DNA of 64,000 nucleotides from Pontibacter aquaedesilientis (GTDB lineage: Bacteria; Bacteroidota; Bacteroidia; Cytophagales; Hymenobacteraceae). The first letter of the stretch is position 1, and each line of letters begins with the position of its first letter. The translations under genes and the position numbers were made by a program. The DNA lies in the NCBI RefSeq assembly GCF_014773225.1, contig NZ_JACXAJ010000001.1:310001-374000 (forward strand), given 5' to 3'. The notes below the pieces were generated by a model. The model did not search any database. It saw only the letters and a program-made list of their open reading frames with translations, and was not told where the DNA came from. This document shows positions 14,434-56,793 of this stretch, piece by piece.

Positions 14434-14505
14434 TAGTCCGTAGGGGAATCGAACCCCTGTTGCCAGAATGAAAATCTGGAGTCCTAACCCCTAGACGAAC
14501 GGACC
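14434..14505 (-). tRNA. tRNA-Glu (anticodon TTC)
   Basis: On the minus strand the sequence begins GGTCCGTTCGTCTAGGGG and folds as a cloverleaf. The acceptor stem is GGTCCGT/ACGGACT with a G-U first pair, the anticodon stem is CCAGA/TCTGG with loop TTTTCAT (anticodon TTC), and the T arm is AGGGGTTCGATTCCCCT. CCA is not encoded. The 3' end faces the AT-rich PLP gene. Confidence 0.96.
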
Positions 14506-41024: not shown

Positions 41025-41100
41025 CAGGTTAGCTGGTTTTAGTCTACTGACCCTGCTGATAGGTATAGACGCCCTTCTGACAGGTATGGACCGTGTGCTA

Positions 41101-42054
41101 TCACTTAAAGATGCCTGCCTCTTCCCACGCTTCCAGCAGCAAAGCAGAGCATTTGTCACCCTGGCCCGCTGCCTGCATGGCCCAATAGATTGCCTGTTCG
41201 TAATTGCCAGCCCCTTCATAAGCTACCGCCAGGTTATGGGCTGCTTTTTTGCGATGCTTATACCTGGCATCCTGTGCCATCGGAAGCAAGAGGTCGATCG
41301 CCTGCTGCCAGCGGTTGGTGTGGATGTAAGCAGCGGATTCCGACAGAGCCTGTGTACTGTGTACCTGGCGAACCAATAACATGGGCTTCGGGTATAGTCG
41401 GTCCCAATAGCTATACCCGGCTTCGACAGCGAGTCTGTTGATAGCAGGCCCGGCTTTTGCGATGGCAGGCCCGATAGCCAGCAGGCCACTAATTGCTGTA
41501 CGGGAGTCGTAGAAGTCATCGTGCATTAAATCAGCTTGGTCAATAACAGTGCCGGTACTGTCATAGAGTGTCCAGCTCGTCCTGACAAGCAGGTTGTAAT
41601 TGGCAATCTTGGTGCGGGAACCTTCCTCGTCCTCGTAAGTGTCCACCTGCTTCTTCATCCGGGCATCGAATTGATCTAGTGTCAGAATCAGGTGGGGGCT
41701 ATACTTGGCAAACAGTCGGCGGACTTCCTCTTGGCCTAGTTGCGCAGTGGCAGAGGAGGGAAGCACAATGGCCGAGTCCGGATTAATCAGCACGAAGGTA
41801 GAGTCGTTGTAGACTGCGCCCATGGCACCGCCGGCAGCCTGGTTGGCACCATCCCGGAAAACCTCAATTACACGCTCGTTTTTGTTTGAAGCCTGGCTGG
41901 CATCGTACCTGTTCACTACCAGGATTTTCCACTGATTATGCGTTACCTGCACGGCGGGCGGTTGCACGGTTTCCAGAGTGAGCAAAGTTACACAGCTGCT
42001 AAGCTGCAGGGCGAGCAGGGAGCAAAGTACAGCACGGATTCTACTTAGTTTCAT
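41101..42054 (-). CDS. DUF6340-like lipoprotein with TPR-like C-terminus
   Basis: Lipoprotein of 317 aa with lipobox QLSSC (Cys21) and VTLLTLETVQPPAVQV after it. I tentatively match it to DUF6340, a Bacteroidota family of unknown function. The middle part (about 30-190) looks like a beta-rich domain with ILVVNRYD and WTLYDSTGTVIDQ. The last 110 residues are helical with a TPR-like rhythm: RWQQAIDLLLPMA, HNLAVAYEGAGNYEQAIYWAMQAAGQG. A role in envelope protein assembly or stress is possible but unproven. Confidence 0.7.
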   Translation of the reverse strand: MKLSRIRAVLCSLLALQLSSCVTLLTLETVQPPAVQVTHNQWKILVVNRYDASQASNKNERVIEVFRDGANQAAGGAMGAVYNDSTFVLINPDSAIVLPSSATAQLGQEEVRRLFAKYSPHLILTLDQFDARMKKQVDTYEDEEGSRTKIANYNLLVRTSWTLYDSTGTVIDQADLMHDDFYDSRTAISGLLAIGPAIAKAGPAINRLAVEAGYSYWDRLYPKPMLLVRQVHSTQALSESAAYIHTNRWQQAIDLLLPMAQDARYKHRKKAAHNLAVAYEGAGNYEQAIYWAMQAAGQGDKCSALLLEAWEEAGIFK

Positions 42055-42141
42055 GCCTTCATCTTAAAATCACAACTAAGATAATAGGAAAGACTTATAA
42101 TTTAAATCATGAATATTTGACTTGGGGTGTCGCATGAAAAC

Positions 42142-42173
42142 AAAAAGACCGGCCTCTAGAGACCGGTCTTTTT
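42142..42173 (-). terminator. Intrinsic terminator of the efp-accB-accC operon
   Basis: AAAAAGACCGG (42142-42152) pairs with CCGGTCTTTTT (42163-42173), 30 bp after the accC stop, with T-runs on both strands. Confidence 0.9.
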
Positions 42174-42202
42174 GTTAAGGTATAGCTTTCGCGAAAACGA
42201 GA

Positions 42203-55701: not shown

Positions 55702-55730
55702 TTTGGTATTAAAATAAATTTGTATATTTG
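55702..55730 (+). promoter_or_regulatory. Promoter of the greA leader RNA
   Basis: TTTG (55702-55705), a 17-base spacer, and TATATTTG (55723-55730): both boxes are perfect matches to the Bacteroidota consensus, the clearest promoter in the window. Transcription should begin near 55737. The gap from 55594 to 55701 shows nothing else. Confidence 0.75.
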
Positions 55731-55736
55731 TCTCTG

Positions 55737-55882
55737 TGCAGCGCAAACGGGGGAAGCCCGAGAGTCTGCAACTTACCCAGACCGCCTGGCGACGCAGAAG
55801 GGGCCGGGCTGAAGAAGAAAACATTAATCATCAACATATTTGGCAAAAAGAACGGTTATGTAAAACATAGCCGTTCTTTTTG
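55737..55882 (+). ncRNA. Structured greA leader RNA / candidate small RNA
   Basis: A GC-rich block at 55741-55810 sits between a perfect promoter and a strong terminator, in otherwise AT-rich DNA. AGCCCG (55755-55760) can pair with CGGGCT (55805-55810) as an outer stem. Inside, GTCTG (55764-55768) pairs with CAGAC (55778-55782), or alternatively TCTGC (55765-55769) pairs with GCAGA (55794-55798); the two cannot form together. It resembles no riboswitch or small RNA family I know; SRP, 6S, TPP, cobalamin and c-di-GMP motifs were considered and do not fit. In E. coli greA also has a leader with an internal terminator (GraL). Whether the RNA acts in cis or in trans is open. Confidence 0.5.
55846..55882 (+). 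terminator. Terminator inside the greA leader
   Basis: AAAAAGAACGGTTATGT (55846-55862) pairs with ACATAGCCGTTCTTTTT (55865-55881) with a single G-U pair, and then TGTTTTTG follows. It ends 32 bp before the greA ATG, so greA expression needs read-through or a further promoter. Confidence 0.85.
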
Positions 55883-55913
55883 TTTTTGTGTTTTAAAACG
55901 TGAAGACAACACT

Positions 55914-56387
55914 ATGAGCAACATTTCTTATTATACTGCAGAAGGTTTGCAAAAACTGAAAGACGAACTGGCAGAGCTCAAAACAAAAGGCCGCGCTGAA
56001 GTGGCCCGCCAACTGGCCGAAGCACGCGACAAGGGCGACCTGAGCGAGAACGCCGAATACGACGCCGCCAAAGATGCCCAGGGCCACCTGGAACTCAAGA
56101 TCGCCAAACTGGAGGAAGTGGTAGGCAACGCCCGTCTCGTCGATGAGACACACCTGGACACCAGCAAGGCACTGATCCTCTCCAAGGTGAAGATCAAGAA
56201 CCTGAAGAACAACATGGTGATGGACTACCTGTTGGTAGCGGAAGAAGAAGCGGACCTGGCATCCGGTAAAATCTCTGTTAAATCACCAATAGGGAAAGGT
56301 CTTTTGGGTAAATCGGTCGGCGATATCGCCGAAATTACCGTACCAGCAGGTAAGATCGAGTTTGAGGTACTAGAAATCAGCCGCTAA
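55914..56387 (+). CDS. greA: Transcription elongation factor GreA
   Basis: Secondary-channel factor that lets stalled RNA polymerase cleave backtracked RNA. It is 157 aa from ATG 55914 (MSNISYYTAEGLQKLKDEL). A longer frame from 55728 would translate the structured leader and terminator and is not credible. The N-terminal coiled coil (about residues 8-75) has the acidic tip in KGDLSENAEYDAAKDAQG. The C-terminal FKBP-like domain has SPIGKGLLGKSVGD near 126-139. The HIT gene follows 4 bp downstream. Confidence 0.97.
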   Translation: MSNISYYTAEGLQKLKDELAELKTKGRAEVARQLAEARDKGDLSENAEYDAAKDAQGHLELKIAKLEEVVGNARLVDETHLDTSKALILSKVKIKNLKNNMVMDYLLVAEEEADLASGKISVKSPIGKGLLGKSVGDIAEITVPAGKIEFEVLEISR

Positions 56388-56391
56388 AATT

Positions 56392-56793
56392 ATGGAGCCA
56401 ACCATCTTCACTAAAATTGTAAAAGGCGAGATCCCTGCTTACAAAATAGCTGAGGATGATCGTTACCTGGCCTTCCTGGACGTATTCCCGACTACCAAAG
56501 GCCATACGCTGGTCATTCCGAAACAGCAGATCGACTACCTGTTAGACCTGGATGACGAGCTATACCTGGGCTTGATGGCTTTCGCCAAGAAGGTGGCCGC
56601 CGCCGTAGAAAAAGCTATACCTTGCAAACGCATTGGGGTAGCGGTCGTAGGGCTGGAAGTGCCGCATGCGCACGTACACCTGATTCCGCTGAATAAGATG
56701 GGCGATATGAATTTCGCCAACAAGCAGCAGTACAGCAAGGAGGAGTTTGAGGAGGTAGCCGACAAGATCCGTCAAGCATATGAAACTGCCTAA
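56392..56793 (+). CDS. HIT-family nucleotide-binding protein
   Basis: Histidine-triad protein of 133 aa that hydrolyses nucleoside phosphoramidates or similar bonds. It begins TIFTKIVKGEIPAYKIAEDD and has DVFPTTKGHTLVIPKQ near residues 28-43. The HIT motif HAHVHLIPL near 96-104 carries the three histidines. It lies 4 bp after greA and shares its transcript. A perfect palindromic terminator follows. Confidence 0.95.
   Translation: MEPTIFTKIVKGEIPAYKIAEDDRYLAFLDVFPTTKGHTLVIPKQQIDYLLDLDDELYLGLMAFAKKVAAAVEKAIPCKRIGVAVVGLEVPHAHVHLIPLNKMGDMNFANKQQYSKEEFEEVADKIRQAYETA

Follow-up and report, generated by a model that had tools for sequence, protein, structure and literature searches.

GreA rescues stalled RNA polymerase and proofreads the transcript. 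In Escherichia coli, GreA lowers the read-through into its own gene via the leader RNA GraL, acting in cis, and GraL takes about two thirds of the greA transcripts (PMC6829880). In vivo, termination is raised by catalytically active GreA, and the sequence of the terminator arms is needed; when the 5′ leader is scrambled or the terminator arms are switched, the effect of GreA is weakened, and termination persists in vitro (PMC6829880). The action of GreA on this terminator apparently involves a further factor, not yet identified. For Enterobacteria and bacilli, too, attenuators of greA have been predicted, in a study whose main text has no occurrence of the word stems Bacteroid-, Cytophag- or Flavobacter- (PMC2965389). 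As for Bacteroidota, searches of open-access literature gave no report of a terminated greA leader, and the Bacteroides atlas paper mentions neither greA nor attenuation. Subscription papers and supplementary data, e.g., the transcript maps of Bacteroides thetaiotaomicron, were outside the scope of this search, so the novelty of what follows is provisional.

The locus described here lies in a window of 64,000 nucleotides, which is the whole stretch of Pontibacter aquaedesilientis DNA that was analysed. Its layout resembles that of GraL: a promoter, an intrinsic terminator in the leader, and then greA, which, judging from the sequence, would depend on read-through. It is also like the greA- and rnk-leaders of Enterobacteria, Pseudomonas and bacilli that Naville and Gautheret predicted in 2010, where a premature terminator stands before genes of the greA family. 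The features, with positions counted from the first letter of the window, are as follows.

55593: end of the upstream neighbour, a 2-hydroxyacid dehydrogenase gene
55702..55730, plus strand: promoter of the Bacteroidota type, TTTG-N17-TATATTTG, with -33 and -7 boxes (motif match; the -7 box is kept in 50/50 Pontibacter)
55731..55841, plus strand: Pontibacter-specific leader insert, from promoter to terminator (50/50 in the genus; missing in other members of the family)
about 55734-55738: predicted RNA start
55738..55769, plus strand: hairpin P1 of the insert, inner stem CGGG/CCCG (pairing and covariation)
55778..55811, plus strand: possible GC-rich hairpin P3 of the insert, CAG..CC / GG..CUG (RNAalifold on 11 leaders; weak)
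about 55842..55884, plus strand: intrinsic terminator hairpin, core GAACGG...CCGTTC (folding and conservation)
55876..about 55897, plus strand: U-tracts (CTTTTTGTTTTTGTGTTTT) closing the terminator (sequence; kept in relatives)
55914..56387, plus strand: greA, 157 aa, ATG at 55914 (Pfam PF03449, GreA_GreB_N, and PF01272, GreA_GreB)
56392..56793, plus strand: HIT-domain gene, starting 4 nt past the greA stop (PF01230)

An earlier note on this DNA had named the promoter, the terminator and the gene, and all three have held up. The motif TTTG-N17-TATATTTG occurs once in the window, and a TA[TC]nTTTG box is found in the same place in 50 of 50 Pontibacter; folding supports the hairpin, which is conserved in relatives; and both GreA domains are matched by the downstream frame. 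Taken alone, the promoter motif is weak, because 0.65 matches are expected by chance in the window; TTTG and TAnnTTTG are what we take to be the promoter consensus of Bacteroidota. The leader as a whole folds better than shuffled sequences (z -4.9), and it does so because of the terminator, the only part that beats them: the GC-rich block alone, with z -1.23, is no better than its shuffles. The HIT gene is probably part of the greA transcript, and with its start 4 nt past the greA stop, the leader terminator may control it too.

Evidence from relatives is far more extensive. Genes for greA were located by similarity to GreA in 150 genomes of the family, 148 of the order, 149 of the class and 118 of the phylum, and the upstream regions of a sample of these genomes, together with those of 80 named ones, were examined. 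A simple stem search was used, counting a hairpin when it had at least 9 pairs, a U-rich 3′ side and a position within 130 nt of the greA ATG. With start codons assigned by similarity, and in sets that are samples of relatives that are not independent, a hairpin with a U-tract precedes greA in 50/50 genomes of the genus, 49/49 of the family, 35/38 of other families of the order, 50/61 of other orders, 20/25 of other classes and 69/77 of the named genomes, e.g., Flavobacterium, Winogradskyella, Pedobacter, Mucilaginibacter, Cyclobacterium, Algoriphagus, Dyadobacter and Hymenobacter. The same search did not detect it in 11 of the 61 genomes from other orders. By way of control, dinucleotide shuffles give such a hairpin in 3-6% of cases, other genes at the same loci have one upstream in 31 of 324 cases (about 10%), and so do 8 of the 45 genes called in the window.

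The promoter box tells a similar story. A TAnnTTTG box lies at most 40 nt before the hairpin in 23/49 leaders of the family, 17/35 of the order, 35/50 of the class and 51/69 of the named genomes, where 1.6-2.9 are expected; the 324 control genes show it in no case. Between the hairpin and the ATG no box is found in the 50 leaders of the genus or in the 49 of the family, and there are 0-2 elsewhere, which is no more than chance. Outside Pontibacter, the promoter box often directly adjoins the hairpin; members of the family have no insert, and their -7 box is about 11 nt before it. Going by predicted starts, the hairpin is close to the start site in much of the family, order and class, and about 110 nt away in Pontibacter. 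In most Bacteroidota no more than about 15 nt separate the promoter box from the start of the hairpin; for GraL the figure is 19 nt before the terminator. The promoter boxes of some genera (g2, g3 and g6) depart from TAnnTTTG. The earlier note had suggested that leader termination of greA may recur in a distant phylum, and the layout is now well supported across Bacteroidota, more widely than had been claimed. The best reading of these sequences is that the terminated greA leader is ancient in Bacteroidota and extends across almost the whole phylum.

Another point of interest is the sequence of the terminator stem. The core (AA|GA|AG)CGG..CCGTT is present in 50/50 leaders of the genus and in 82/88 of the non-Pontibacter leaders of the order, while only 1 of 61 leaders from other orders has it, although 50 of these have a hairpin. 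Other clades have other stems; Flavobacterium, for instance, has AATCCCG..GGGATT, Pedobacter has CAAGACTATGTAG..GTAGTCTTG, and one other class has GCCGCAGCCG..CGGCCGTGGC. Pairing at stem positions immediately flanking the core on either side is more frequent than in shuffles, and the spacing of the core arms varies from 4 to 16 nt, which points to an RNA hairpin rather than to a spaced DNA operator. By itself the short core is nothing unusual, since GAACGG-N4-24-CCGTTC has four occurrences in the genome to which the window belongs, no more than the reversed control. Compared by inspection, the stems are unlike those of GraL, GACCTGGG/CCCGGGTC in E. coli and GAACGG/CCGTTC here, so the stems give no evidence of common descent. 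That one layout spans Bacteroidota, while the stems are unrelated and fixed in each order, suggests either an ancient control or a repeated origin.

Pontibacter has added something of its own, a structured insert of 110 nt before the terminator, and in this it again differs from GraL. In every one of the 50 Pontibacter genomes a TAnnTTTG box is followed by about 120-150 nt of leader, by a hairpin of 17-19 bp with U-tracts and, about 30 nt further on, by greA; measured to the AGAACGG core of the hairpin, the TA[TC]nTTTG box is about 125-160 nt upstream in all 50 leaders. In a DNA search of 148 relatives the terminator stretch was matched in all 49 congeners, and the block from promoter to terminator aligned only in the ten closest.

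The best-supported part of the insert is hairpin P1. In the 11 closest leaders 94% of its cells are paired. Among 24 distinct Pontibacter leaders outside the subgroup of the window, compensatory changes are found at 8 of the 9 pairs, the covariation score is 0.613 versus 0.249 when shuffled (reached by 0/500 shuffles), 84.9% of the cells are paired versus 62.2% in shuffles, and double changes number 49 versus 21.3; the loop is mostly AGNNG. The covariation that the earlier note had proposed to look for is therefore present in P1, but is lacking in the two stems that it had named as mutually exclusive, GTCTG/CAGAC and TCTGC/GCAGA. In the 11 closest leaders, window included, 49% of cells are paired for the first stem and 38% for the second, no different from shuffled letters; the two stems are base complementarity in the species of the window and not a conserved structure, and TCTGC sits within the 3′ arm of P1.

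The support for P2 and P3 is below that for P1: P3 shows no compensatory change among the 11 leaders examined with RNAalifold, and P2, with its AUG, is missing from the subgroup of the window. In the 24 aligned leaders a UAUG, containing the AUG of P2, is invariant within ACCAGCnUAUGGUAUA or GCUUAUGCUAAAC (e.g., leaders L037, L046 and L021). A leader peptide starting at this AUG was considered and rejected, because many species have immediate stops and, by eye, no peptide is conserved. A covariance model of the insert, built from the leaders with P2, matches the greA leaders of Pontibacter and, weakly, two places in other families of the order; with matches so confined, the idea of a mobile or multicopy RNA was rejected. 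The model misses the subgroup of the window, which is without P2, apart from one weak partial match (G009).

The earlier note could not match the leader to a known RNA family, and an Rfam scan of the window with gathering and permissive thresholds gave no leader family at threshold. A weak local alignment to L20_leader (RF00558), a leader of a different gene, crosses the insert and the terminator with 28.9 bits; the gathering score is 58.7, and the match is largely to the terminator and U-tract. The only match above threshold in the window is a tRNA gene at 14434-14505, on the minus strand.

Does the hairpin belong to a greA leader at all, and if so, is it a terminator? Such a hairpin also precedes about 10% of other genes, so one can picture it as the terminator of the preceding gene, or as a DNA operator, unrelated to transcription of the greA leader. 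We consider this very improbable: a promoter box stands between the upstream gene and the hairpin, and since the hairpin lies 3′ of greA's own box, an arrangement seen in 0/324 controls, it belongs to the greA transcript and not to the previous gene. An operator is rejected on the spacing of the arms, too variable and unlike that of a dimer operator. A different idea is that the hairpin is no terminator, but an element that shields the 5′ end of the greA mRNA or controls its translation. In many orders it does begin right at, or just beside, the predicted RNA start, as is the case for stabilising hairpins; however, the U-tract immediately 3′ of the stem persists across orders, and in Pontibacter the hairpin is about 110 nt inside the RNA, which makes this account unlikely as a full explanation. 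The hairpin could nonetheless serve in part for stability of the 5′ end.

The two remaining alternatives accept the terminator and differ as to its purpose. In a riboswitch or classical attenuator, as the earlier note had envisaged for the GC-rich block, the block would sense a ligand or factor and toggle between an antiterminator and the terminator. The structured 5′ domain of the Pontibacter leaders and the strong covariation of P1 speak for it, but the alternative stems proposed are not conserved, no Rfam family was matched at threshold, and only one genus has the insert, whereas the terminator occurs throughout the phylum, most relatives keeping it without the block. Moreover, by duplex energy, the insert pairs with each of the terminator arms no better than chance (mean z 0.05 and -0.01), and the antiterminator that is part of the models of Naville and Gautheret was not found here, nor is there room for it in most genomes. 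This mechanism, too, we regard as unlikely. Alternatively, the leader may be chiefly an independent small RNA acting in trans, with the terminator as its 3′ end and read-through into greA as a side effect. It would have its own promoter and terminator, and E. coli GraL has been reported to act not only in cis but in trans too (PMC6829880). Yet, apart from the terminator, the RNA differs from genus to genus, and most of the phylum has hardly any of it; the conserved feature is the position ahead of greA, and such a role seems rather doubtful.

The preferred interpretation is a greA leader attenuator resembling GraL, possibly autoregulated by GreA, to which Pontibacter has attached a 5′ domain of its own. 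That the 5′ leader of greA has a built-in intrinsic terminator, and that read-through sets the level of GreA, appears quite probable from the sequences compared. Transcription would begin just past the TATATTTG box, and the leader would end in a GC-cored hairpin followed by a U-tract. A stop at this point would leave a short transcript, about 150 nt long in Pontibacter and about 30-50 nt in most relatives; the alternative outcome would be read-through into greA and the HIT gene. Given that no promoter is predicted between the hairpin and the ATG, greA would need read-through, which would set how much GreA is made. The sequences show the promoter box, the conserved terminator and P1, and no switch of alternative stems; beyond this, polymerase would stop at the hairpin part of the time, and read-through would be regulated.

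How would such a decision be taken? In most of the phylum the promoter box and the start of the hairpin are about 15 nt apart at most, and the choice therefore cannot rest on an aptamer or antiterminator located upstream. A stem fixed in each order, with little or no room for a sensor, would fit control of the GraL kind better than a riboswitch. Most likely, termination would respond to the state of RNA polymerase itself, and the leading candidate regulator would be GreA, through feedback on its own terminator of the kind reported for GraL. By this analogy a role for GreA in the read-through of greA is conceivable, at somewhat less than an even chance. The fuller proposal is one that we put forward tentatively: a minimal attenuator across the phylum, made of a hairpin beside the promoter with neither aptamer nor antiterminator, in which the transcription complex reads the stem sequence (AACGG..CCGTT in the order of the window, other fixed stems elsewhere), GreA controls termination of its own mRNA in a sequence-specific manner, and the Pontibacter domain modulates the outcome. 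In that genus the insert of 110 nt, with P1, is an addition that perhaps tunes folding, stability or sensing. These leaders also offer very short natural templates, of about 30-50 nt, for studying the influence of GreA and RNA polymerase on termination at intrinsic sites.

Some leaders are more elaborate. Three from Mucilaginibacter (L352, L354 and L359) have two tandem terminator-like hairpins, ..GTAGTCTTGTTTGTTTTT and then a second stem with ..GGGCGGTTTTTTTT. In six leaders from Winogradskyella, Algibacter and Aestuariibaculum (L325, L330, L333, L343, L357 and L361) the first terminator is followed, before the ATG, by another hairpin-like element, GCTGAA..TTCAGCATCTTTT or a variant of it. 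Elsewhere in the window, at about 42139-42176 on the minus strand, a strong hairpin, AACAAAAAGACCGGTCTCTAGAGGCCGGTCTTTTTGTT, is found 85-122 nt before the start of the gene at 41100-42054.
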